From positions 1-34,006 of the forward strand of contig CANHCR010000025.1 in NCBI GenBank assembly GCA_947459205.1: a DNA stretch of 34,006 bases, in the 5' to 3' direction. Below are positions 7,540 through 33,540 of this stretch, in pieces. Numbering within the stretch: position 1 is the stretch's first letter; each line of letters starts with the position of its first letter. The position numbers and the translations under genes are program-made. Below the pieces are notes generated by a model that did not search any database, was not told where the DNA came from, and worked only from the letters and a program-made list of their open reading frames with translations. The DNA is from Caryophanales bacterium. GTDB lineage: Bacteria; Bacillota; Bacilli; Paenibacillales; CANHCR01.

Positions 7540-7581
7540 AAAAAATCTGGCGCAAGGCAACGTTCATTGCTTTTGCGCCAG
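7540..7581 (-). terminator. Rho-independent terminator of the diaminopropionate-like operon
   Basis: A perfect 9-bp stem, CTGGCGCAA (7547-7555) with TTGCGCCAG (7573-7581), plus an inner GCAA/TTGC pairing, is followed on the minus strand by six T residues (7545-7540). The stem overlaps the last codons of the sbnB-like gene. Together with the hairpin at 7512-7533 it makes a tandem terminator. Confidence 0.8.
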
Positions 7582-8544
7582 ACGATAGTAATATTCTGCG
7601 ATTGCAATATCATACACTGCCATCCCCATCGGCGAAAACATCACCGTCGCACGCGCCGCCGCCATATCATGCCACCGTTTCGCATCTATTCGTTCCGGCC
7701 ACTCTTGCACCAGCTTCTTAGTGCCGCCAAATTGTCGGTACCACAACTCGATGTCCGTCCCTTCACGGCACACCTCATCCCAACGATCAACCACCACAAG
7801 CGGAATTTGCTCCAAAACGCGCGGTTCATAATCACGAAGCGAGATATGCAGCAGGATTTTACCGTTCATAGGCGGTTCGACATCGATGTAACGCTCGCTT
7901 GAGGCGGTACAAGTCAGCACCACATCGGCCTGATCATACACTTCCTGCCACGATGCACACCGTTTCACTGTCATCTGCTCCCGCTCCGCCATTTCACAAA
8001 AACGCTTACACGTCTCCTCGCTCACATCGTACACGACATACTCCAGCACCCGTTCGCCATAGAGCGCATCTAGCATTTGCAAATGCATCTGGCCAATCGG
8101 ACCGCAACCGATCAAACCAACACGAAACGACCCGCTCAACCACGCCTCACACTGTTGCAAAAAACAAGCGCTCACCGCAGCCGTTCGCCTCGCACTCAGT
8201 ATACCGCTATCTACCACAGCAAGCGGCACGCCACTGTCGGCATCATTCAGTACCGTCACACTATGGGCACGCGCCAACCCGTGCGTACGATTCCCAGGAA
8301 AACTAGCAATCCACTTTAACCCTGCACGATGCACAGCACCGCCAACATACGCAGGCATTGCGATGATGCGATTGCGCCGATCACCGTAACGCAAGTATGG
8401 TTTCATCGGCTGCACAGCGTCCCCCGCCAACAAACAATCATTCACCTCAGCAACAATCGCACACAAGGCGCGCCAATCACAGCCGAGCGCCGTCAGTTCT
8501 GGTTGACGCAACGCAAGCCACTCTCCGCGCCACTCACTGCTCAT
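7564..8544 (-). CDS. SbnB-like dehydrogenase (ornithine cyclodeaminase/mu-crystallin family)
   Basis: In staphylococci SbnB oxidatively splits N-(1-amino-1-carboxyl-2-ethyl)glutamate with NAD+ to give L-2,3-diaminopropionate and 2-oxoglutarate. This 326-aa product shows the family N-terminal half (GDAVQPMKPYLRYG, HRAGLKWIASFPGN, GVPLAVVDSGILSARRTAAVSA) and a Rossmann motif VGLIGCGPIGQMHLQML, then VVLTCTASS and LLHISLRDYEP. I chose ATG 8544, overlapping the end of the sbnA-like gene by 11 bp; an upstream in-frame ATG at 8580 would lie deeper in that gene and lacks support. The adjacent SbnA-like gene makes diaminopropionate synthesis more likely than ornithine cyclodeaminase or alanine dehydrogenase activity. 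The tandem terminator follows. Confidence 0.82.
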   Translation of the reverse strand: MSSEWRGEWLALRQPELTALGCDWRALCAIVAEVNDCLLAGDAVQPMKPYLRYGDRRNRIIAMPAYVGGAVHRAGLKWIASFPGNRTHGLARAHSVTVLNDADSGVPLAVVDSGILSARRTAAVSACFLQQCEAWLSGSFRVGLIGCGPIGQMHLQMLDALYGERVLEYVVYDVSEETCKRFCEMAEREQMTVKRCASWQEVYDQADVVLTCTASSERYIDVEPPMNGKILLHISLRDYEPRVLEQIPLVVVDRWDEVCREGTDIELWYRQFGGTKKLVQEWPERIDAKRWHDMAAARATVMFSPMGMAVYDIAIAEYYYRLAQKQ

Positions 8545-9463
8545 CAAACACCGTCTCCAAATACCGTTCTCCGCGATCATGCATGATCAGCACAACCGTT
8601 GCTCCCTCCGCCAATTCATCTTCCATTTTCAAATAGGCCGCACAAACGCCACCAGATGAAGCGCCGACCAACATCCCTTCCGTCGCTGCCAAGCGCCGAC
8701 AACCCTCGACACAATCGTCATCACTGACATGTACCACTCGTTGCAAGTCTTCTGCTTCATAAAAAGGTGGCGAAAACCCTGCCCCCAACCCTGGAAAGCG
8801 TCTGCAACCAGACGTGTCGGCTGCGATTTTACTCCCTAGCGCATCTACACCAATCAATCTCGTTGCGAGCCCTGCGTCGCGTATGGCCGTTGCGATGCCA
8901 TGCACGGTGCCGCACGTACTCATACCCGCGATGACGTAATCGATACCTGGCAACTCCGCCTGCAATTCGGCAAACGTCGTCTCCCCATGCGCGCGCGGAT
9001 TCGCTTCATTTTCATACTGATTCAACCACACCGCGCCACTAACCTCCGCCAACAATTGACGGACACGCGCCAGTCTAGCCGGCAAAAATTCTCCGCTCAC
9101 CGCATCCGGCTCCATCACCCACTCCAACTGCGCACCCAATGCCTGCAAAATCCGCACGTTTTGCGCACTCGTTTTCACATCCAACACACAGATGAAACGA
9201 ATGCCAAGTTGCGCACAAAAGGACGCCAAACTGATCGCCATATTGCCCGAACTGGACTCAATCAGCACACTGTTAGCAGACAGCCACCCATCACGAAGGG
9301 CACAGCGCAACATGTGCAATGCCGGCCGATCCTTGGCGCTACCGTTCGGATTCAAGTACTCCAATTTCGCCCACACATGCACGTCCGTACGGCGCGAAAA
9401 ATGCGCCAGACGAACGAGCGGTGTCCGCCCGACCGCAGCTGCAGCACCCTCATCCAACCTCAT
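8534..9463 (-). CDS. SbnA-like PLP enzyme (2,3-diaminopropionate precursor synthase)
   Basis: SbnA joins O-phosphoserine and glutamate into the substrate of SbnB. This 309-aa product is a fold-type II PLP enzyme of the cysteine synthase superfamily. It shows VGRTPLVRL, the PLP lysine K44 in NPNGSAKDRPA, the substrate loop ESSSGNMAISLA, NQYENEANPRAH, the phosphate-binding GMSTCGTVHG, and the late GASSGG motif. The NPNGSAKDRPA form is closer to SbnA than to CysK. ATG 9463 is preferred because GAGGTG precedes it; the in-frame ATG at 9484 overlaps the upstream stop and has no Shine-Dalgarno. It follows the adenylate-forming gene by 11 bp and overlaps the sbnB-like gene. An ordinary cysteine synthase is possible but the neighbour argues against it. 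Confidence 0.83.
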   Translation of the reverse strand: MRLDEGAAAAVGRTPLVRLAHFSRRTDVHVWAKLEYLNPNGSAKDRPALHMLRCALRDGWLSANSVLIESSSGNMAISLASFCAQLGIRFICVLDVKTSAQNVRILQALGAQLEWVMEPDAVSGEFLPARLARVRQLLAEVSGAVWLNQYENEANPRAHGETTFAELQAELPGIDYVIAGMSTCGTVHGIATAIRDAGLATRLIGVDALGSKIAADTSGCRRFPGLGAGFSPPFYEAEDLQRVVHVSDDDCVEGCRRLAATEGMLVGASSGGVCAAYLKMEDELAEGATVVLIMHDRGERYLETVFDEQ

Positions 9464-9474
9464 ATCGCACCTCG

Positions 9475-10671
9475 TCAACGCCATATTTTTTTCAATTTAC
9501 GCGCGCCATCGGCAAACCATTCATCCGCCTCATTCGCTTGCTCAACCACAATCGCAGTCAGCAGTCCATGGCTAATCATTTCGCCAATTTCAGCGATGCG
9601 GTGCGCCAAATCATCGGCAATACGCGCCCTCGTCTGCTCACTCAACGCCTCACTGCTGCGCACAAAAACGCACATCTTTCGCCCCTCGCGCAACACCACT
9701 CGGATGACCGCATCCGCAACATGTGTGCACACCGTTTGCTCGATATCGTACAAACTGATTTTCTCACCATGCTTAAATTCATCGCCAATACGCCTAGTCA
9801 CTGCGGCGAACGTCATCCGCTGCCGACCCTCCACTTCCATCATCCGCAAATCGCGCACCACATCATTCGTCACATATCGCAAAACTGGAAAATGCGTGCG
9901 ATAAAGCGCCGTCAAGACGAGCACACTTTCGTCCTGCGCAACGTCGAACCCGTCGCGCAATCGCTCGGCAATCAGTCCATCCATCAGTACATACCTACCG
10001 ATTTTATTGCAAAAGTAAGCAATCGTGCCGATTTCAATCGAGCCGTACGTATCGACGATATCGCCTGCCGCCAACTGCAATCTGGCCGCCATCTGTGCAC
10101 GCCACGCCGGCGTACACACCTCACCGACTAGTATCACTTTTCGAAGGCCAAATTGCAGTGGATCCGGCGCCGCAAACAGCAATCGTTCCAAAATCGATGG
10201 CATCGTATACAGCACCTGCGGACGCTCACGCTCCAGCACGGTAAGGTGTTCTGCAATCGGCAGTGAAAACGGCAAACTGTGACATGTCAAGCCAATCTGC
10301 TGAAAAATGTCCGCCGCCGTCGCCGCCGCATGACCAGTCCCCATATCCGCAACCGCCGTTCGATACGGCACATGCCCCGTTTCATCGGCCAACAACTGCG
10401 CAAACAAGCGCGCCTTTTCATCGAGATAAAACCGCTCCTCGGCCGCCGAATAGCGAATCCGCTTGCGCCGACCGTTCGAAGTACCCGAAGTCAGATAAAC
10501 ATTCAATGTGCCGGGTGGATCGGCAGCGGCATAGTAATGCGTAGCCAGCAACGTGTCATCGATCAGCGGCATTTGATCATCATTCAACATTTCCCCATAC
10601 CAGGCGAACTGTGCACGCACTTGCTCCCGTTTCAGACGTAATTGTAATACGTTCTCATTTTCGCTATCCAT
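9475..10671 (-). CDS. Adenylate-forming enzyme, phenylacetate-CoA ligase / CoF synthetase-like
   Basis: This 398-aa protein resembles the PaaK/CapK branch of AMP-forming ligases, which activate carboxylic acids as acyl adenylates. Visible motifs are the ATP loop YLTSGTSNGRRKRI near residue 80, LRKVILVGEVCTPAWRAQMA, the adenine-binding DTYGSIEIG, and LTALYRTHFPVLRYVTNDVV, where the usual YRTGD-like motif has an altered end. The C-terminal region GARKLKKIWR carries lysines where the catalytic Lys usually lies. No carrier-protein domain is present. As first gene of the unit ahead of the sbnA- and sbnB-like genes, it probably activates an acyl or amino acid partner for diaminopropionate. The ATG at 10671 lacks a strong Shine-Dalgarno sequence. 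Substrate is unknown. Confidence 0.75.
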   Translation of the reverse strand: MDSENENVLQLRLKREQVRAQFAWYGEMLNDDQMPLIDDTLLATHYYAAADPPGTLNVYLTSGTSNGRRKRIRYSAAEERFYLDEKARLFAQLLADETGHVPYRTAVADMGTGHAAATAADIFQQIGLTCHSLPFSLPIAEHLTVLERERPQVLYTMPSILERLLFAAPDPLQFGLRKVILVGEVCTPAWRAQMAARLQLAAGDIVDTYGSIEIGTIAYFCNKIGRYVLMDGLIAERLRDGFDVAQDESVLVLTALYRTHFPVLRYVTNDVVRDLRMMEVEGRQRMTFAAVTRRIGDEFKHGEKISLYDIEQTVCTHVADAVIRVVLREGRKMCVFVRSSEALSEQTRARIADDLAHRIAEIGEMISHGLLTAIVVEQANEADEWFADGARKLKKIWR

Positions 10672-17930: not shown

Positions 17931-19619
17931 CTAATTTCGCTTGCGCAATAGATATAAAAATAGCAACAACGCAATGATTAGAGAACAAAGACCGATGACC
18001 AGGATTAACCAATTTTTAAGACCGGTTAACTGGTCTTGTAAAGCTTGGTACGCGGATGACGTTATCGAGCTGGCCGTTTGTAGCGTTTGATTCCACAAAG
18101 CCTGCGCCCCGCTATCTTTTGCGACCTCGGCGTTCGACTTACTCGCGCCACCCTCACCTTCTGATGCTTTATCACCATCGCTACCATCATTGTTACGATC
18201 TGCAGTCTGACCTTGTTGCTCGTTGTCATCTGCAATCATACCCGTAGCAATCTCGCTGCGCTCGCGACTCCATCCATCAGGTCGTTGCCAGTTGGGAATC
18301 GCAAAAAAATTCACTTCATAACTTACATCTACCGGACCTTTGACTCGGTGCATCAATCCTCTTATAGCAACGCGGTATGTGTCACCGTCTCGATACTGGG
18401 CTTCGGAAGGACGGAATACAACGGCCGAAGCATAGTCACCCTTGCTAACATCGATATTAAAAAAATCGTCATTGTCAGATACGGCGCTATCATATTGATT
18501 TAACGTCCACGTTCGCTTCCCTTGCTCGTCCGTCAGTTCGACCGATAGTTTAGTGGATTGTGACAAATCATAGGTCATCGGATTTGGCGTGAACGACCAA
18601 GGAGCCATCGTATTGAAATATTGTGTCGGAAAGAAGCCGGCGCTAGGCCAGGCGATATAATCATAATTGACTTTGGTATTCGTCGCATCGGAAGTGTCGA
18701 ACACTTGCATCACACCATAAGGAACACTTTGCCGCGTGTAGGCCAACCCAAAGCCAATGTTCTTAAGTGGTGGGTGCAAAATCCACCGGCGATGACCGAC
18801 CGCTTCTAAATTATGAATACCGATATCGTCCATGAAACCGACGACCTGTTCACTGAACGTATCAACGCCTGATGAGATGTTGCTCGATGTGGTGGACTGG
18901 TAGCCAATGTCATAAAATGCTCGATTCATAGCTAGCGGTTTACGCGGTTCATGCGTCAATTCATCATTGGCGGCCAGCACCAGCGCCCCGTGTTGCGCTT
19001 TACGATTTAGTTGCTGATCAAGCACGAGCCGGTCAGGCAGTCCTGCCAAATAGCGGACAAAATTGGCCGTTCGAAGACCGTCGAGTAGCATCCCATCTTT
19101 GAGATTCCCAAGTGAGTAGGGAGAATCTGCACTTGGTAACTGGGTAAATTGTTCATTGTATTCGTTGAATGAGAACTGTGCCTTGTTCGCTTTATATTTC
19201 GCGACAATCTCATTTTTACTACGGTCTGCTGTGCTATGGTTGAATGTGCTGGCAGCTACGGAAATCGTTTTGCTCGTCCGCCAAATCTGGCTTTTGTCCG
19301 TTTCTTCAATGCGCAACGAGCAGACGCCAGGACCGACCGCTTTCAAAATATTACCGGGAAGCACGCGAACGACCTTTTCGTCCGTTGAGATGTATACCAA
19401 TTTGTCCGTAACATTTTCACGCTTCAACAATGTTGAACCGCTATAATAGTCACGAAACGCCTGCATCGGATACGTCTCTCCGACTGCCATCACATCCGGC
19501 CATTCCATATAAGATCGTTTCAATTGGCTGAAATTCGATGATTCGGCGCGAACAAGCGCTGTCACCAAAAACAACAAACAAATGGCCAACACCAAGATTC
19601 GTATATTCCTATTTGTCAA
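17931..19619 (-). CDS. Membrane-anchored CAP-domain protein
   Basis: The 562-aa protein has an N-terminal signal/anchor (ILVLAICLLFLVTALVRA), a Big-like beta domain (about 35-120, WPDVMAVGETYPMQ and EKVVRVLPGNILKAVGPGVC), and a CAP/SCP domain (about 165-330) with LLDGLRTANFVRYLAGLP, KAQHGALVLAAND, EVVGHRRWILHPPLKNIGFG-type residues. Another beta region follows, then a low-complexity acidic linker (about 470-505) and a C-terminal membrane helix with a short basic tail (LLRKRN). It should therefore sit on the outside of the membrane. The start is TTG at 19619, overlapping the upstream paralogue by 11 bp; a later TTG is possible. CAP domains in Bacillus such as YkwD lack a firm enzymatic role. 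It is the downstream partner of a tandem duplication. Confidence 0.75.
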   Translation of the reverse strand: MTNRNIRILVLAICLLFLVTALVRAESSNFSQLKRSYMEWPDVMAVGETYPMQAFRDYYSGSTLLKRENVTDKLVYISTDEKVVRVLPGNILKAVGPGVCSLRIEETDKSQIWRTSKTISVAASTFNHSTADRSKNEIVAKYKANKAQFSFNEYNEQFTQLPSADSPYSLGNLKDGMLLDGLRTANFVRYLAGLPDRLVLDQQLNRKAQHGALVLAANDELTHEPRKPLAMNRAFYDIGYQSTTSSNISSGVDTFSEQVVGFMDDIGIHNLEAVGHRRWILHPPLKNIGFGLAYTRQSVPYGVMQVFDTSDATNTKVNYDYIAWPSAGFFPTQYFNTMAPWSFTPNPMTYDLSQSTKLSVELTDEQGKRTWTLNQYDSAVSDNDDFFNIDVSKGDYASAVVFRPSEAQYRDGDTYRVAIRGLMHRVKGPVDVSYEVNFFAIPNWQRPDGWSRERSEIATGMIADDNEQQGQTADRNNDGSDGDKASEGEGGASKSNAEVAKDSGAQALWNQTLQTASSITSSAYQALQDQLTGLKNWLILVIGLCSLIIALLLFLYLLRKRN

Positions 19620-21381
19620 AGGTAATCACCACCGCGTTATAAATCGGTTCCCAACGGACATCTGCAGCGAATGATTCACTAACGAAGCGAAGCGGCACAA
19701 ACACGCGACTTTTGTTGCTAATTGCTGATTGCGATAATGTGACCGTTTTGCCGTCTACCGTTGCACTTTTTTGACCCACTCGCAACATCACTTTGCGAGT
19801 TCCTTTCATTGCTGTAATCGTCTGCGTCGCGTTGTTAAACGAGATGCTAGCCCCTAAGTTCTCAAGGATACCACGCAACGGTACAAGCACACTGCCATTC
19901 ACGCGCAACGGAGCTTGATCGTATATTTTCTGCTTGCCATTGATGTAAATCAAAATCTCATTTCTGCCGGTCGCACGTTGCACTTCCGCAGTTGAAGGAT
20001 AGTCGATGTTTGATGCCGCTCCTTGCACTTGCTCAAGCCCAAAAAACTTCACCTGATAAGTAATCGTTTTTAACCCCTGTGTTTTATGGCGTACGCCACT
20101 GACCGTCACGGTAAATGTGTCACCATGATCAATTTCAATGGATGGATCAGGGCGAAACATGATGGCGAATGGGATGCCGCTCCCTTTTTTACTAATGTTA
20201 AAAAATTCTCCCGTTTCTCGAACCGCGCTGTCGTTCGCGTTCAGCGTCCATGTTTTTCCGCCGCGCTCACTTAAGGTGACAGCAATCGAGCCCGTATCGG
20301 TAGCATCATAAATGGCAGGATTGAGCGAAAGCGACCAAACAGCTGCTGGGTCGAAGAAGTCGAGCGGAAAATGACCGGCAGACGGCCAACCAATCGTATC
20401 ATAAATGACCTTCGTGCCGATATTGCCGCTATTATCGAACACCTGCATCGTGCCATAAAACTGATTGTCCGCCGATTTTGCCATGCCAAAACCAATCTTC
20501 TTCAAACTAGGATTCATAATCCATCGCCGGTGACCGACTTCTTCGACGTTATTCAGACCGAGATCATCCATAAACCCGCGCACCTGACCATCCAACGTCT
20601 CCATTCCATAGGAAAGATTGCTAGTGGACGTAGACTGATAGCCTTTTTTATAAAAGGCATCGTCCATGCTGGCAGGCTTCTGCGGCGTGTGGTCGAGTTC
20701 GTTCCAAGTCGCATTAAGCACGGCGCCATGTTGCGCCTGCAAGTTCAGCGCCATATCCAATTCCAAGTTGCTCGGCAATCCTGATAAATATCGGACAAAA
20801 TTCGCCATCCGCAGGCCATCCTGCAAAAATCCATCAGCCAATTTACCGGTGGCATATGGACTTTGGATACGCGGCGCACTGACGAACGGGTTGCCCGAAA
20901 AAAGCGGCACATTCCGCTCAAAGACAGCCTTAATTTGTTCCGGCGTCAGTTTCATTTTATCTGCAACAATGTGCTGCTTTGCGGCGACGGCGATTGTTTT
21001 GCTCGTCGTCCATTTCGTGGTCGTCGTGGTCGTCGTATTGCCAGAAGTGGTAACTGTCTTGATTTCCAAACGCAAGGTGGTCGAACCCGCCGCTACTCCT
21101 TGCAACGTTTTGCCGTCCGCCATCACACGAACAACCTTGTCATTCAACGACACATACTTCCAACTGCTCTGCAACGCTTCTTTAGCGATCACTTTACCAT
21201 TTTTGTAATAGACGTCTGCAGGTTGCATGACATACGTTTCGCCAATATTCAACACGTCTGGCCAGTCATAATAATCCCGCTCCGTTTTATCATAATCGGA
21301 GGGAGTCGCCATGCTCACCGATCCGAAAAAGAAACCGCATATCATCGAAAAAACCAAAATCAGTTTTGCCAACTTCGCCAT
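19609..21381 (-). CDS. Secreted CAP-domain protein with stalk (copper amine oxidase N-like) domain
   Basis: The 590-aa product has a signal peptide (MAKLAKLILVFSMICGFFFG..., cut near SMA), a Big-like domain (about 35-130, DKVVRVMADGKTLQGVAAGS), a CAP domain (about 175-340, with MANFVRYLSGLPSNLELDMA and VGHRRWIMNPSLKKIGFGMA) and a C-terminal stalk domain (about 475-590, EILIYINGKQKIYDQAPLRV, LVPLRGILENLGASI and VFVPLRFVSESFAADVRWE). The stalk domain is common in surface proteins of Paenibacillus and relatives. It shares Big and CAP domains with the next gene, which ends in a membrane helix instead. The ATG follows GGGGGAA. A terminator separates it from gerC. Ligand or enzymatic role is unknown; a cell-wall function is likely. 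Confidence 0.8.
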   Translation of the reverse strand: MAKLAKLILVFSMICGFFFGSVSMATPSDYDKTERDYYDWPDVLNIGETYVMQPADVYYKNGKVIAKEALQSSWKYVSLNDKVVRVMADGKTLQGVAAGSTTLRLEIKTVTTSGNTTTTTTTKWTTSKTIAVAAKQHIVADKMKLTPEQIKAVFERNVPLFSGNPFVSAPRIQSPYATGKLADGFLQDGLRMANFVRYLSGLPSNLELDMALNLQAQHGAVLNATWNELDHTPQKPASMDDAFYKKGYQSTSTSNLSYGMETLDGQVRGFMDDLGLNNVEEVGHRRWIMNPSLKKIGFGMAKSADNQFYGTMQVFDNSGNIGTKVIYDTIGWPSAGHFPLDFFDPAAVWSLSLNPAIYDATDTGSIAVTLSERGGKTWTLNANDSAVRETGEFFNISKKGSGIPFAIMFRPDPSIEIDHGDTFTVTVSGVRHKTQGLKTITYQVKFFGLEQVQGAASNIDYPSTAEVQRATGRNEILIYINGKQKIYDQAPLRVNGSVLVPLRGILENLGASISFNNATQTITAMKGTRKVMLRVGQKSATVDGKTVTLSQSAISNKSRVFVPLRFVSESFAADVRWEPIYNAVVITFDK

Positions 21382-21441
21382 CTGCTCATTCCCCCGTCAA
21401 TCATAACATTCGCCAATCATTGTGTTATTAGTTTACCACAG

Positions 21442-21462
21442 AAAAACGCGCGTTGCGCATTT
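21442..21462 (-). terminator. Terminator of the rhodopsin-ger operon
   Basis: On the minus strand an 8-bp stem (AAATGCGC with GCGCGTTT, one G-T pair) and a 3-nt loop run into a short T tract, directly after the gerC stop. It marks the end of the four-gene germination unit. Confidence 0.65.
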
Positions 21463-21467
21463 CTCGT

Positions 21468-22571
21468 TCAATACAAAATCCCCGTGCGCTCGATTTGCAC
21501 GTCGACTTCCACATGAACTGGAATCTTCGCAAATTGTTCATTCCACTTCATTTTCTGATACCCCTCTCGCCATTTGACACGCGCCATGTTGCGCAAATGA
21601 AGCAATTCGAGCTTGTGTCTTTTTTGGACGATCGCAAGCACTTCCTCAGTCAGTTGACGCAAGTCATTTTCAATCGCTAACTCCAGTTGCTCGAACTCAT
21701 CGATGCGCATTTTGTCCGGCACCCACGGATTGATTTCCAGCACTTCGTCTTTGAATATAAAATGCATGAAAATAGTAGGTTGTCCACTAGCCACCCGCCA
21801 TTCCACCTTGCGTTTTGGACCAAAGATGCGCACGGTAGTCGCTTTGGCTGTACGCTCACCGATCTTCAGCGAACCGGTCGTATACACGGCATGTTGCAGA
21901 TAGCCACTCAGCATTAGAAAAGCGATGGTTTGCCGCTCATCCAGTTCACCGACCAACATTCCATCGTCGAACAGCGCCAACCCTGCAAAGCGAATGACTC
22001 GTTGATTCTGTTCAAACGTTAATAGTGGCAAAGAGAAGTGAGCGAAATTTTGCTCGATATTGAAAATCACGTTTTTGATATCATACGCATGCTCCCCGAC
22101 TTTTGTTTCCGAACTAGAAACAATCTCATGTATCGCTTTACCGTTTATCGGATTTTTCATTTTTTTGCTGTCAAAAAAGTCGCGAACCTGCCCTTTCGCC
22201 ACCATGACAAGCGCATCACTGCGCAGTTGCGGATCGCGATAAAAAATATCCAAATAAGGCTTGATTCCCTTTTTCGCGATTTCCTCAGAGAACAGCACCA
22301 CCTGAATATGACTGAGGGCGATATATTTATCGGAACGGTCACGAATCGCACGGATGGCGTCACTAATCGAACTTCCCTCTGCACTGAGTGATTCATTCGC
22401 TTCCTGGTAGGTAATGCCCATTGCCGTGACAAGAATTCGCTCTGGGTCGCGTTCACTGATATCAATCCCTAGTGCATTGACGATGAATTTCTCCTCAAGC
22501 GGCAAATAATCCCAGCAACCGCTTAGCAGCAGATTGCACGCACAAATCACAATGATAATCGCTGTTCTCAT
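21468..22571 (-). CDS. gerC: Ger(x)C family spore germination lipoprotein
   Basis: GerC subunits are lipoproteins on the outer face of the spore inner membrane and part of the germinant receptor complex. The 367-aa product has a lipobox LLSGC with lipidated C19, followed by WDYLPLEEKFIVNALGIDIS, the family N-terminus, and domains with DKYIALSHIQVVLFSEE, FFDSKKMKNPINGKAIHEIV and a helical C-terminal domain. Length is close to GerAC (about 370 aa). ATG 22571 is chosen because AAGGAG precedes it by 9 bp and it overlaps the gerB stop by 4 bp; an in-frame TTG at 22595 lies upstream without a Shine-Dalgarno. It is the last gene of the operon. Confidence 0.93.
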   Translation of the reverse strand: MRTAIIIVICACNLLLSGCWDYLPLEEKFIVNALGIDISERDPERILVTAMGITYQEANESLSAEGSSISDAIRAIRDRSDKYIALSHIQVVLFSEEIAKKGIKPYLDIFYRDPQLRSDALVMVAKGQVRDFFDSKKMKNPINGKAIHEIVSSSETKVGEHAYDIKNVIFNIEQNFAHFSLPLLTFEQNQRVIRFAGLALFDDGMLVGELDERQTIAFLMLSGYLQHAVYTTGSLKIGERTAKATTVRIFGPKRKVEWRVASGQPTIFMHFIFKDEVLEINPWVPDKMRIDEFEQLELAIENDLRQLTEEVLAIVQKRHKLELLHLRNMARVKWREGYQKMKWNEQFAKIPVHVEVDVQIERTGILY

Positions 22572-23668
22572 GCGCTTCCTCTCCTTCTTTTCCAAGTATC
22601 AATGACGAGCAGTAACGGTGTAAGAATCATCGATATGCCGACAGAGGTAGAAAAGATATACAGAAACCAGCGCTCCATTTCTTCGATGCTGATCGATATG
22701 AACGAGAAACTGTAGACGATGACGGCCAAGGTTACGATGATGACGTTGCGTCGCTGGATCCCTGTTACGTGACCAATTTCTAGAACGGCGCGGTAAAAAT
22801 ACATGGTGTTTGTTTTGAATAGCACGAGAAACCAGAAGAGGATGAAGATCATGTCGGTTCGTTCCAAAATCGGCATCGAAACGAGTGCGACATATTGTAC
22901 CGATGGCGCCCATATTTTTGCAAGATAATCAAGCGGATACACAAGTTGTTGCGTGATTACGGCAAGTATGAACAAGACACTAACAAAAGTCACCGCCCAA
23001 AGCGCGTGCATCATCGATTTTCGTTGGTCAATTACATAGGGATAATAGGTCTGCAACACTTCGTAGCCGGCATAAGCGAACAGTACCGCGAGTGTACCTG
23101 ACACGAACGTACCAGCGTCATTTTCGAATAGCGGCAACAAATGGTAGATGTCGCCATGATTCATGACAGGTGAAACAAAAAACAAATTGAAAGGCAATGA
23201 GATGAAAAAAATGAGTACTGTCACACGACCGAGCGTACGCAGCCCACAAACGGAAACATAGACCGTGAGCAACAGTAGCAGTAGCGAAAGTACATAGGCT
23301 GGCGTCATCAGCAAAATGTACGTGTTAAACAGTCGCCCTGTATACCATAGAGTCACGCCACAGGAGAGCGCGCCCAGTGCGATGATGACGATGCCGACCA
23401 ATTTGCCGAGCCATTTGCCGAGCAGCCGCTCTGCATATTGTGTGACGGTTAAATCGGGATAACGCGCCGCTAATTTCATCATCATCCACGTGTTGATGAA
23501 CACAATGATGCTAGCCGCCATGGTCACAAACCAGCCGTCACGTGCGGCGTTTTCGGTCGCGATTCGTCCAATGAAGAGAGGACCTAGACTTAACATGACA
23601 CCGACGATAATGGTGCCCATTTGAAATGCGCTAATCATCATGGATGGCGGCCGTTGCGAGATGTTCAT
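22568..23668 (-). CDS. gerB: GerB family spore germination permease-like subunit
   Basis: GerB subunits are integral membrane proteins of the APC superfamily (PF03845) that bind germinants in characterised receptors. The 366-aa product is hydrophobic throughout with about ten membrane helices and family segments such as ISAFQMGTIIVGVMLSLGPL, TVTQYAERLLGKWLGKLVGI, PLFENDAGTFVSG and FAYAGYEVLQTYYPYV. ATG 23668 is preferred; it shares one base with the gerA stop (TGATG) and AAAGGAG lies 9 bp upstream. Overlaps on both sides imply fixed stoichiometry with GerA and GerC. The natural ligand cannot be read from the sequence. Confidence 0.93.
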   Translation of the reverse strand: MNISQRPPSMMISAFQMGTIIVGVMLSLGPLFIGRIATENAARDGWFVTMAASIIVFINTWMMMKLAARYPDLTVTQYAERLLGKWLGKLVGIVIIALGALSCGVTLWYTGRLFNTYILLMTPAYVLSLLLLLLTVYVSVCGLRTLGRVTVLIFFISLPFNLFFVSPVMNHGDIYHLLPLFENDAGTFVSGTLAVLFAYAGYEVLQTYYPYVIDQRKSMMHALWAVTFVSVLFILAVITQQLVYPLDYLAKIWAPSVQYVALVSMPILERTDMIFILFWFLVLFKTNTMYFYRAVLEIGHVTGIQRRNVIIVTLAVIVYSFSFISISIEEMERWFLYIFSTSVGISMILTPLLLVIDTWKRRRGSA

Positions 23669-25095
23669 CAATTGCGACTCCTTTGCTTCGGTAAACGAAT
23701 AATCATATCGCGCATCTCGCGCAAGTTGAATGGACTGAGCGGCGACAAATAGGCCTTGCCAAGCGGATGCAAATGACAGAGTTGAATAAGCCAGAACATG
23801 ATGGAGACAATCAAACCGTAGCCACCGAACAATGATGCTAGGATTAGGTTTGCATAGCGCAGCACTTGCAACGAATAACTGGTCGATAAGCGCGGCATGG
23901 CGAACCCGGATATGGTGGTGATGGCGACGACGATAATGACACCAGGTGAAATGAGATTCGCCGATATGGCGGCCTGACCAATAACGATCGCCCCTGCCAC
24001 GCCGATAATTTGCCCCAATTTGGTCGGCAACCGCAAGATTGCCTCAAGGATGAGATCAATCATGATTTGCATAATCAAAATTTCGAATAACGGCGGAAAC
24101 GGCACCTGCTCTCGTTTTGACATCAGGATTTCCACCAATTTCATAGGGATGAGATGTGCGTGATAGGTTACTAGACTTAAATAGACCGCCGATAAGTGCG
24201 CCGATAGCATGAACCCACCGAAGCGCAAGAAACGATGAATGGTCGCGGAAATGAAGCGCTGGTAATAGTCATCAGGCGAACTGAGCAGATTAAAAAAAGT
24301 GGCAGGACCGATGAGCGCTGTCGGACTTCCATCGACCAACAAAGCAATGCGCCCGTCTAGCAGTTCGGCGGCTACTTTGTCGGAACGTTCGGTATTCATG
24401 AATTCATCAAACGGTGAAAGCGGATGGTTGACGAGCAACTCTTCCAGTTGACCGCTATCAAAAATGGCATCGGTGCGAATGTTGCGTAATTTGTCCTCGA
24501 CCCTTTGAACCAAGTGTTGTTCGGTTATGTCTTGTAAAAAAAGGAGCGTGCACGTGGTACGCGTGCGTTCACCGATGACATATTGGCGCGCGACCAGTTC
24601 GACTCCTTTCAAGCGTTTGCGGATGAGACCGACGTTCACCTGGATGTCCTCGGTGAAACTGTCGCGTGGTCCGCGTGAGACGAATTCGTTGACGGGCTCT
24701 TCGATGCCGCGCGATAGATTGCGCGGGGCGTGCACGAGGATGGCGGTCTGTTCATCCTGAGCCAGTAGAACGAGATACCCATCCTTCAATGCGACCGTAA
24801 TGTCCGCAAAGTGCAAAACCTCCTTCACAATCGTCAGAGCGGATAGCGATTGTTGTAGTTCCCCCCAAGTTTGCACGTGCAACAGTCGTTCGGCAATCTG
24901 TTCACGAATGAATTTGTCATCTGTCAAACTGCGGAAGTAGCACATTTTTGTCACGAGATTTGTTGCACCCGCCAAATAAACGGTTCGCGTGACAAAGTCG
25001 AGGTGATCAGCAAAAGTTTCCTGAAGCCGTTCGCTTACTCGTTGCGGAGTGTCATGGAACAATGACTGAAGCCAACGAACAACACTTTTGATCAT
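23668..25095 (-). CDS. gerA: GerA family spore germination receptor subunit
   Basis: GerA subunits (PF03323) oligomerise in the spore inner membrane and are thought to form the ion channel that opens at germination. The 475-aa product has a soluble N-terminal part (about 1-260) with ITVALKDGYLVLLAQDEQTA and EEPVNEFVSRGPRDSFTEDI, the family hallmark NVGLIRKRLK, then ELLDGRIALLVDGSPTALIG and a C-terminal membrane part with IPMKLVEILMSKREQVPFPP and LGQIIGVAGAIVIGQAAISA. Length is typical of GerAA. GGAGGTG lies 7 bp before the ATG, which overlaps the stop of the rhodopsin gene by 4 bp (ATGA). It is translationally coupled to rhodopsin and gerB. Confidence 0.95.
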   Translation of the reverse strand: MIKSVVRWLQSLFHDTPQRVSERLQETFADHLDFVTRTVYLAGATNLVTKMCYFRSLTDDKFIREQIAERLLHVQTWGELQQSLSALTIVKEVLHFADITVALKDGYLVLLAQDEQTAILVHAPRNLSRGIEEPVNEFVSRGPRDSFTEDIQVNVGLIRKRLKGVELVARQYVIGERTRTTCTLLFLQDITEQHLVQRVEDKLRNIRTDAIFDSGQLEELLVNHPLSPFDEFMNTERSDKVAAELLDGRIALLVDGSPTALIGPATFFNLLSSPDDYYQRFISATIHRFLRFGGFMLSAHLSAVYLSLVTYHAHLIPMKLVEILMSKREQVPFPPLFEILIMQIMIDLILEAILRLPTKLGQIIGVAGAIVIGQAAISANLISPGVIIVVAITTISGFAMPRLSTSYSLQVLRYANLILASLFGGYGLIVSIMFWLIQLCHLHPLGKAYLSPLSPFNLREMRDMIIRLPKQRSRN

Positions 25096-25766
25096 CTCCG
25101 CTCACCTCCACTTAATTGCCAGACGGCTAAGATAAGCAAGCCGGCTTTGACGAACACTTGTCCAAGAGCAAGCGCATCAACCATCGCGGGTGCACTCAAC
25201 CAACCAGTAGCGAATGGACCAAGCAACCAAATAATAGGAAAATAGAGCCACCCGACGGTGACCAGGAGTGCTAACGCGACAAATGTGCGATAGACCGGGC
25301 GCGCTTGTTTTTGTGATTGTTCAAGCAAATGGCGCCAGATGGTATACAAAATGTAGCCCAGCATTATGCCAGCAGCAGTAAACATCATCGTGCTCAACAA
25401 ACCGTTTGCCCGTTCCGCCATCATGCCGAATATGAGCATGAGTACGTTCGAAGCAATCAGGCGCAGCGGAAGTTTGATCGTTTGATGTGTTGCTTTGGAG
25501 AAATCGGCGTGTGCCAACGTCCACATTATGATGAGCGTGAATGGCGTTGTCCAAAACCAGTCGGCATAGAATGGTACTAATGGTGAATGGCTATCGATAT
25601 CGGCAACTAACCAAGCAATGAAAAGCGTACCCATTGTTTTGAGCAAAAATAAGTGCCAGATGCGTTCATACTTTACTTCTCGCCGGTGTAAATACAGAAG
25701 TACCCATAGTGAAATCCATAAACACCAAATATATACGTCCACCCACCACGAACTGATTGCATCCAT
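25092..25766 (-). CDS. Microbial rhodopsin, first gene of a germination receptor operon
   Basis: The 224-aa, seven-helix protein matches the bacteriorhodopsin family (PF01036). Helix C reads YADWFWTTP (67-75), matching YADWLFTTP of bacteriorhodopsin, with counterion D69 (D85) and T73 (T89). Helix F reads WLYFPIIW (173-180), matching WSAYPVVW. Helix G has the Schiff-base lysine K207 (K216) in QVFVKAGLLIL. Helix spacing agrees with one constant offset of 9 across helices F and G. Unusual residues are F66 for R82, I80 for the proton donor D96, F176 for Y185 and Q203 for D212. AAGGAG lies 7 bp before the ATG. The stop overlaps gerA. A light sensor for germination is inferred. A pump is less likely without a D96 equivalent. 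No retinal synthesis gene is in the window. Confidence 0.87.
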   Translation of the reverse strand: MDAISSWWVDVYIWCLWISLWVLLYLHRREVKYERIWHLFLLKTMGTLFIAWLVADIDSHSPLVPFYADWFWTTPFTLIIMWTLAHADFSKATHQTIKLPLRLIASNVLMLIFGMMAERANGLLSTMMFTAAGIMLGYILYTIWRHLLEQSQKQARPVYRTFVALALLVTVGWLYFPIIWLLGPFATGWLSAPAMVDALALGQVFVKAGLLILAVWQLSGGERR

Positions 25767-25834
25767 CGTCTCACTCCTTCAGCTTCATTTTTGCCAATTT
25801 CGACCGATTTATGCGACGAACGTTGATTCATTCA

Positions 25835-31910: not shown

Positions 31911-32351
31911 TCACCAGCCGATGTTGAGCAATCCAATCAACTGAAGCAGCAGCCAAGTGATAGTCGTTAGTAGAACAGTGATGCCTAGCGTAAGTTTCAC
32001 GCCTTGCCGTTCCATCGTATTGGCGATGAGGCCAGGGACGATCAGTCCGATTGCGCTCAATATCCATGCCAATGATCCGCCAAGCATTAAACTTAATGTC
32101 ATGCCGGTCAGCAACATCGCCACAAACTTTCGCCTGCCATAAAGAATCGTCATTCGCCCAATGCCGTATTTGACGATGAAAAAGGTAAGCAAACTGATTA
32201 ACAATACGGCAACCAAGGAAAGCGGCTGATTGAAGAGCAACGCCAAGTAACCGGGTACGACTAAGCCTGCAGGTAACAATTGAAAGCGTTCGGCAAACAG
32301 CAAACTGATTGCGCAACCGACAGCAAGCGCCAAATAGACTTCAGCAACCAT
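31911..32351 (-). CDS. pgsC: Poly-gamma-glutamate synthesis membrane protein PgsC/CapC
   Basis: PgsC works with PgsB to polymerise and export gamma-linked polyglutamate. The 146-aa product follows the family closely: YLALAVGCAISLLFAERFQL, LLPAGLVVPGYLALLFNQPL, YGIGRMTILYGRRKFVAMLL, and LIVPGLIANTMERQGVKLTL, with about four to five membrane helices. GGAGG precedes the ATG, which overlaps the end of pgsB by 11 bp. A terminator follows at once, so pgsA and pgsE homologues are not part of this unit. Confidence 0.93.
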   Translation of the reverse strand: MVAEVYLALAVGCAISLLFAERFQLLPAGLVVPGYLALLFNQPLSLVAVLLISLLTFFIVKYGIGRMTILYGRRKFVAMLLTGMTLSLMLGGSLAWILSAIGLIVPGLIANTMERQGVKLTLGITVLLTTITWLLLQLIGLLNIGW

Positions 32352-33540
32352 GCGGGGTTCCTCCTTCCGGCATCATCCGTTTGAGAAGTTCGATTCCCGC
32401 ACCGTGGATATTGCCCATGCCAACGATTGCACAACCGACGTGAACCATCTCTTGGATGGCTGCAACAATCCGGTCGGCGCCGACGTTCTCAAGGTCGCGA
32501 TACTCAATGACTGTGAATACGCCGTTAGCAATCGCTTCGGCGAGCGGTTCCGTCCGTGTTCCGATGGCGAGCAGCCGATGCGCAGGCAAATGCGGCAACA
32601 CGTCGTTCGCAAACTGCCAGGTTCGGTCGACTCGATCAGCGCGACAATTGAGCACAATCAACGGCTCCCCTGCAGGAAATCCGCTGGTCGCGATTTTCTG
32701 CCAAACGGCGAGTGCAGACTGCGGGTCATTGGCTGCGAACCCGTTGAAAAACCAAACGTCATCGGGCCACTGTTCGCCCTCCATTTTCCGATACATAAGT
32801 GCTCCAGGATCAGGTTTCGCTTGCAACATGCCGCGCCATGCCATCTGCGGATCGATGTGCAGAGCTTCGGCAACGGCCAAGGCGAGCGCCACATTTTCGG
32901 CGAACAATAAATACGGAAATGCCGTCAAACTGTCTTCGTCGATCGCCTGCAAATCGGCGATGAAAACGCGTGTCTGGCGTTCGGCTGCGACTTCGCAAAA
33001 ATAAGCGGCATAAGGTCCCGGCGAAATGACCAAAATACCCTCATACGGAATCGTTGCGGCGAAATGGCGGGCAACATCGTCGAGCGTCGGCCCCATCACA
33101 TCGAGATGATCGGTCAACACGTTGGTAATGACGAGCAACTGCGCTTGCAGCAACTCTTCCTGAAAAATCAATTGGTACGCTGGCTTGAGCGCCATACATT
33201 CGCTGACGAGCACTTCCGCCTGCCAATTCGCAGTTTCTTGGACGACCATTTTTTGCTCGGAAATGTTCGCTCCCAGCGGTCCGCGGCGAATCGGTCGTTC
33301 GTCGGCACTAAACCAATAAAGCATGCGAGCGGCGCTCCCTGTCGTCTTACCCACGACGCGCCAATCCGCCTCTGCCAACATCGCCGTCAACAAGCGCGTT
33401 ACCGTCGATTTGCCGCGACTGCCGTTGACGTTGATGCGCAGCGGGATTCGATTGATGCGACGCCGGTGAAGCGCACGTTCCACCATTCCGACTGCAATCA
33501 GCAACGAGATGACAAGCATCCCAAGTAGCCATAACGGCAT
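32341..33540 (-). CDS. pgsB: Poly-gamma-glutamate synthase PgsB/CapB
   Basis: PgsB is a membrane-associated, Mur-ligase-like amide ligase using ATP to join glutamates through the gamma carboxyl. The 399-aa product has an N-terminal membrane helix (about 3-20), the P-loop GSRGKST (40-46), GKTTGSAARML, RGPLGANISEQ, VLVSECMALKPAYQ, TNVLTDHLDVMG and a late GNIHGAG segment, all typical. The start is preceded by GGGGGGTG, which lies in the 3' arm of a terminator-like hairpin, with seven T residues between stem and ATG. It overlaps pgsC by 11 bp. Polymer stereochemistry and whether it is capsule or released cannot be told. Confidence 0.93.
   Translation of the reverse strand: MPLWLLGMLVISLLIAVGMVERALHRRRINRIPLRINVNGSRGKSTVTRLLTAMLAEADWRVVGKTTGSAARMLYWFSADERPIRRGPLGANISEQKMVVQETANWQAEVLVSECMALKPAYQLIFQEELLQAQLLVITNVLTDHLDVMGPTLDDVARHFAATIPYEGILVISPGPYAAYFCEVAAERQTRVFIADLQAIDEDSLTAFPYLLFAENVALALAVAEALHIDPQMAWRGMLQAKPDPGALMYRKMEGEQWPDDVWFFNGFAANDPQSALAVWQKIATSGFPAGEPLIVLNCRADRVDRTWQFANDVLPHLPAHRLLAIGTRTEPLAEAIANGVFTVIEYRDLENVGADRIVAAIQEMVHVGCAIVGMGNIHGAGIELLKRMMPEGGTPHGC

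Follow-up and report, generated by a model that had tools for sequence, protein, structure and literature searches.

A type-1 rhodopsin gene at the head of a GerA-type germinant receptor operon in two bacterial families: a candidate light-modulated germinant receptor

Endospores are understood to germinate when they meet nutrients or one of a few physical cues. GerA-type receptors, typified by GerAA, GerAB and GerAC of B. subtilis, sometimes with a D subunit, are described in a review as ion channels that are gated by nutrients and let ions out of the spore core when they open, with SpoVAF/FigP as the amplifier (PMC11841064). The locus described here resembles these systems (PMC11841064) in its gerA-gerB-gerC order and gene families, in its lipoprotein C subunit, in the overlap of its genes, and in its sporulating host. 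It is unlike them in that a microbial rhodopsin gene leads the operon, whereas none of the known extra (D) subunits is described as a rhodopsin.

Rhodopsins coupled to a partner protein are known in other settings. The heliorhodopsin AbHeR binds and light-regulates the glutamine synthetase AbGS, the enzyme of its own operon (PMC9529153). That arrangement shares with the present locus the placing of a rhodopsin and its partner in one operon; there, however, a type-3 rhodopsin is paired with a soluble enzyme, and here a type-1 rhodopsin is paired with a membrane ion-channel receptor. Flotillin-associated rhodopsins (FArhodopsins; PMC10308929) are also of type 1, with a conserved gene context, altered key residues and a likely non-pumping function, but they derive from proteorhodopsins, have flotillin as the partner, and possess a retinal pocket that is predicted to be reduced. 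Xenorhodopsins, a group that is diagnosed by the replacement of Asp by Pro at position 212 in helix G (Ugalde 2011, PMC3198991) and that is known in the sporulating Bacillus coahuilensis (PMC3198991), are considered below together with Anabaena sensory rhodopsin (ASR).

Light is also known to decide or modulate the exit from dormancy. For example, it controls this exit in Rhodospirillum centenum cysts (PMC8092318), and the CarO rhodopsin of the fungus Fusarium slows conidial germination in the light (PMC5796164). A germinant receptor operon is involved in neither system: the former involves the photosynthetic apparatus and the latter a proton-pump rhodopsin in conidia. A rhodopsin-germinant receptor unit of the present kind, for which the preliminary description of this locus gave no precedent, was likewise not found in a full-text literature search covering few subscription papers and no preprints.

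Organization of the operon and identity of its products

The window, that is, the whole stretch of DNA analysed, comprises 34,006 nucleotides (contig CANHCR010000025.1) of a Caryophanales bacterium. Four genes follow one another without gaps on its minus strand from 25766 to 21468, in the order rhodopsin, gerA, gerB, gerC. The features of the unit are as follows.

25773..25780, minus strand: Shine-Dalgarno-like AAGGAG 5' of the rhodopsin ATG, read from the sequence
25092..25766, minus strand: gene that opens the operon, for a microbial (type 1) rhodopsin of 224 aa; predicted Schiff-base Lys207 and counterion Asp69
23668..25095, minus strand: gerA, germinant receptor A subunit, channel-forming (PF03323, E 5.7e-144)
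22568..23671, minus strand: gerB, spore permease, ligand-binding B subunit (PF03845, E 1e-45; TIGR00912 above cut-off)
21468..22571, minus strand: gerC, lipoprotein C subunit with lipobox LSGC (PF25198 and PF05504; TIGR02887 above cut-off)
21441..21465, minus strand: hairpin with T-run 3' of gerC, possible terminator (fold -12.7 kcal/mol, z -1.96)

Each junction is a 4-bp overlap. The rhodopsin stop and the gerA ATG share ATGA, gerA and gerB overlap in TTGA, and the gerB stop and gerC start share ATGA; the preliminary description had already reported an overlap at all three junctions. ATG 22571, which forms this last overlap, is the more likely start of gerC and is favoured over the mechanically listed TTG 22595. 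The rhodopsin gene is preceded by a good site for ribosome binding and, further 5', by a gene in divergent orientation, and thus it is the first of the unit. No convincing sigma-G promoter was recognized upstream of the operon. The terminator that had been said to close the unit is plausible only: the hairpin and T-run are present after gerC, but the consensus terminator scan does not list them. The assignments of GerA, GerB and GerC made earlier agree with the Pfam and TIGR matches and the lipobox, and by these matches the A, B and C families of a GerA-type germinant receptor are encoded together at this locus.

The product of the first gene gives a significant, near-full-length match to PF01036 (Bac_rhodopsin; residues 8-212, E 1.5e-18; score 67.6 bits, family cut-off 24.6 bits), and it is the sole match above cut-off in its genome (2.5 Mb, 99% complete). 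In a phmmer search of the PDB it also matches solved rhodopsins, best 6kfq (E 1.5e-7), with ASR at E 3e-7. A PF01036 profile search and a comparison with rhodopsin structures, the latter by HHpred, had been proposed earlier as checks; the PF01036 and phmmer matches both speak for a rhodopsin. The bacteriorhodopsin (BR) signatures reported in the preliminary description were all found: YADWFWTTP aligns with BR Tyr83-Pro91, WxxFPxxW with BR Trp182-Trp189, and Lys207 with BR Lys216. An AF2 model has seven long helices at low confidence (pLDDT 62.5), and the top 50 Foldseek matches listed for it are rhodopsins only (probability 1.00, weak E values, 3e-3 at best); this modelling is taken as supporting evidence only for a rhodopsin fold. 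The suggestion that the protein is a "D subunit", or takes the place of a small extra subunit, was dropped as unsupported, the protein being a 224-aa PF01036 homologue.

Other genes of the window may be mentioned briefly. Immediately 3' of the operon, and on its strand, lie the genes of two adjacent large CAP/SCP-domain proteins, one of which has a copper-amine-oxidase N-terminal domain (window 17931-21381). A CapC-like protein beside a Mur-ligase-domain protein (window 31911-33540) resembles poly-gamma-glutamate capsule genes. An overlapping run at window 7564-10671, consisting of genes for a PLP-dependent enzyme, a member of the ornithine-cyclodeaminase family and a product with an AMP-binding match, resembles a small pathway for a siderophore or amino-acid derivative.

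A second case and the GerABC complement of both genomes

A conserved association in related genomes, which had been proposed as a further check, was found in the MAG Paenibacillaceae bacterium RE-23may17-333 (G011), which belongs to the same order as the window's organism and to a different family. Its rhodopsin gene (L006:8024-8740) directly overlaps gerA, and gerB and gerC come next with overlapping starts; after this unit comes a second complete gerABC without a rhodopsin of its own (L006:12476-16144). Between the window and G011 the rhodopsins are about 25% identical, GerA 43%, GerB 39-42% and GerC 32-36%. No flanking gene common to the two loci was seen, so the conserved unit is the rhodopsin plus gerABC. 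The rhodopsin-gerABC association is therefore real and conserved, in two instances, each from one genome, at least one of them a MAG.

Apart from this, few genomes of the order have a rhodopsin. A rhodopsin above the family cut-off occurs in 4 of 395 genomes of the order; two of the four are Ger-linked, each being the sole rhodopsin above cut-off in its genome, and the other two are ordinary (proteorhodopsin-like in G019, xenorhodopsin-like in G246). Searches of genome contigs with the window protein gave no further member, and with the pair alignment they recovered only the G011 case; viral contigs, for which the pair alignment and the G011 protein served as queries, and plasmids, searched by tblastn, gave none. 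Ordinary rhodopsins of the proteorhodopsin or xenorhodopsin type exist elsewhere in the phylum (G019, G246, G715, G1096 and Exiguobacterium-like genomes), and among those whose neighbours were read none adjoins a GerABC. For example, at L003, L008 and L029, in other Bacilli genomes that have GerA homologues, the ordinary rhodopsins (of proteorhodopsin-like type in G019 and of xenorhodopsin-like type in G246 and G715) have no adjoining Ger genes in the stretches read. Conversely, the flanks of the GerA loci fetched from other genomes contain no rhodopsin motif.

In a tree of 24 GerA homologues, the three GerA of the rhodopsin clusters (one in the window, two in G011) form one clade (100/100), within which the GerA of the second G011 gerABC is slightly nearer to the window GerA than the first G011 copy is (89/79 support). 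A profile built from these three scored them at 857-892 bits over the 395 genomes, values inflated by their having seeded the profile, and the best other GerA at 445.

The genome of the window has two PF03323 (GerA) loci and G011 has three. The one locus of each genome that lies outside the rhodopsin cluster comes right after dacF-spoIIAA-spoIIAB-sigF and before lysA. In B. subtilis the spoVA genes ending in spoVAF sit between sigF and lysA. SpoVAF belongs to the spoVA operon in that species (PMC11841064), and by gene order the non-cluster homologue of each genome occupies the SpoVAF position. In the GerA tree these two homologues fall with counterparts from other genomes in a separate clade (100/100). 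Since the sole other GerA homologue is at the SpoVAF position, every GerABC receptor detected in either genome lies in the rhodopsin-led cluster, and the rhodopsin-linked receptor is the only GerABC detected in either, as far as the assemblies go. At both loci (L064:6492-9523 and L065:6649-9682) the spoVAF-like gene and lysA follow dacF-spoIIAA-spoIIAB-sigF directly, and the SpoVAC/SpoVAEb genes are on a different contig from the spoVAF-like gene (G000:C51 and G011:C13). With spoIIAA, spoIIAB and sigF in the window's genome above the cut-offs of their equivalog models, and SpoVA proteins (SpoVAC/Eb) present in both genomes, the host is, judged by its genes, an endospore-former.

Active site and descent of the Ger-linked rhodopsins

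Active-site residues were compared in an alignment of 16 rhodopsins, the two Ger-linked proteins and 14 others, and are numbered by their BR equivalents. In BR and ASR, the yardstick sequences, the placing of the Lys, of Asp85 and of the pocket is borne out by the PDB alignments. Both Ger-linked rhodopsins keep Tyr83, Asp85, Trp86, Thr89, Thr90, Pro91, Met118, Gly122, Trp182, Pro186, Trp189 and the Schiff-base Lys216. In the window rhodopsin the equivalent of K216 is Lys207 and that of D85 is Asp69, so that both the lysine and the counterion are in place.

Other positions have changed in both. Arg82 is replaced by Phe or Leu and Tyr185 by Phe, and Thr stands at position 93, none of these changes being found in the 14 others. 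Tyr57 is missing in both where aligned, unlike in the 14 others, and position 212, which is Asp or Pro in all 14, is Gln (Gln203) in the window rhodopsin and Asn in that of G011. Asp96 is replaced by Ile or Thr and the proton-release glutamates (194/204) are missing. Thus the equivalents of the Asp96/Glu donor, Arg82, Asp212 and Glu194/Glu204 that would be expected of a proton pump are all absent. The loss of Arg82, Asp212 and the proton donor speaks against pumping, and the retention of the lysine, the counterion and the pocket speaks for retinal binding. The residues therefore point to retinal-binding, non-pumping sensors, and such common changes at 25% identity would fit one dedicated rhodopsin subfamily.

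The Ger-linked pair shares with xenorhodopsins and ASR (PMC3198991) the replacement of Asp212, and these types are among its best structural matches (7zmy, E 6.6e-18, is the best PDB match for the G011 rhodopsin; ASR is among the best for that of the window). It differs from them in having Gln or Asn rather than Pro at 212, in the loss of Arg82, Tyr57 and Tyr185, and in its GerABC operon. Identity as a xenorhodopsin was rejected for want of Pro212. In the rhodopsin tree the two proteins are joined weakly (66/16) on long branches, with a risk of long-branch attraction, and each placed alone takes the identical basal, poorly resolved position. They are fast-evolving (25% identity, versus 43% for GerA). 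Their common descent is therefore argued from their place in the operon, from the clade formed by the linked GerA proteins and from the residues that they share, and not from the tree.

Proposed function and alternative explanations

If GerA receptors are nutrient-gated ion channels, as reviewed (PMC11841064), they are open to direct action by a photoreceptor in the membrane. We lean, if only slightly, towards reading the operon as a GerA-type germinant receptor with a built-in photoreceptor that modulates its ion channel. The fuller proposal, in which a GerA-type channel includes, as an integral subunit, a rhodopsin of a dedicated subfamily that does not pump, and light is a cue for endospore germination, we regard as evenly poised; the claim of light gating, put forward in the preliminary description, is well motivated but unproven. 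The rhodopsin would be made in the forespore together with GerABC, insert into the spore inner membrane, bind retinal, and contact GerA/GerB, and its light-driven isomerization would shift the gating of the receptor or its sensitivity to the nutrient ligand. Germination would thus depend on light and nutrient together, and light may either promote or delay it. Spores of the window's organism may in this way use light when deciding to germinate. If so, light would be added to the germination signals, acting via a spore-former's only GerABC receptor, type-1 rhodopsins would gain a new effector in a spore ion channel, and the question of what else gates GerA channels would become directly testable. 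The unit would also be a natural start for the optical control of spore germination in laboratory strains.

It could be argued that the rhodopsin is a chance neighbour, which serves vegetative cells or has only its promoter in common with the receptor genes, and which plays no part in germination. The number of cases is just two, and the failure to recognize a sigma-G promoter is in keeping with this explanation. We nevertheless consider it most improbable, as the rhodopsin gene is the overlapping first gene of a GerABC unit in two families without other conserved synteny, and in both genomes the sole rhodopsin above cut-off sits on the sole GerABC cluster; two such adjacencies arising at random are very unlikely. 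A role in germination without contact with GerABC is conceivable if light-driven ion transport over the forespore or spore membrane alters the potential, and thereby feeds the receptor channel or energizes outgrowth. Pumps do exist among the distant relatives (bacteriorhodopsin, BcXeR), and the electrochemical potential of the spore is reported to matter in germination (a reference cited in PMC11841064). With the equivalents of Asp96, Arg82, Glu194, Glu204 and Asp212 missing, however, the proteins have neither outward-pump nor xenorhodopsin (Pro212) machinery, which makes ion transport distinctly unlikely.

Rather unlikely is a light-independent role, in which the opsin is an accessory or structural subunit that stabilizes or tunes the receptor without retinal, as has been suggested for FArhodopsins and lysine-less opsins. 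Opsins without retinal have been described (PMC10308929, PMC4915679), and the rapid sequence divergence of the Ger-linked pair, the loss of several conserved polar residues, and the lack of a detected retinal-making enzyme would all agree with such a role. On the other hand, Lys216, Asp85, W86, T89, T90, M118, G122, W182, P186 and W189 are kept in both proteins despite 25% identity, and the lysine and counterion are not expected to persist without retinal.

The photoreceptor reading is at its weakest on the supply of retinal. A PF03055 oxygenase was detected neither in the window's genome nor in G011 by a search in which the positive controls matched; PF15461 (Blh) gave no match in either genome in a search in which no positive control matched either. 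As no retinal-forming enzyme was found and G011 has no detected phytoene synthase, any retinal would probably have to be scavenged. The genome of the window does have a crtM/crtN-type carotenoid cluster (L037:425-12687, on G000:C6), in which no cleavage oxygenase was seen. It encodes four crtN/crtI-type desaturases, a phytoene/dehydrosqualene synthase, a PF04240 protein, a glycosyltransferase and an acyltransferase, a content that suggests a pigmented spore-former.
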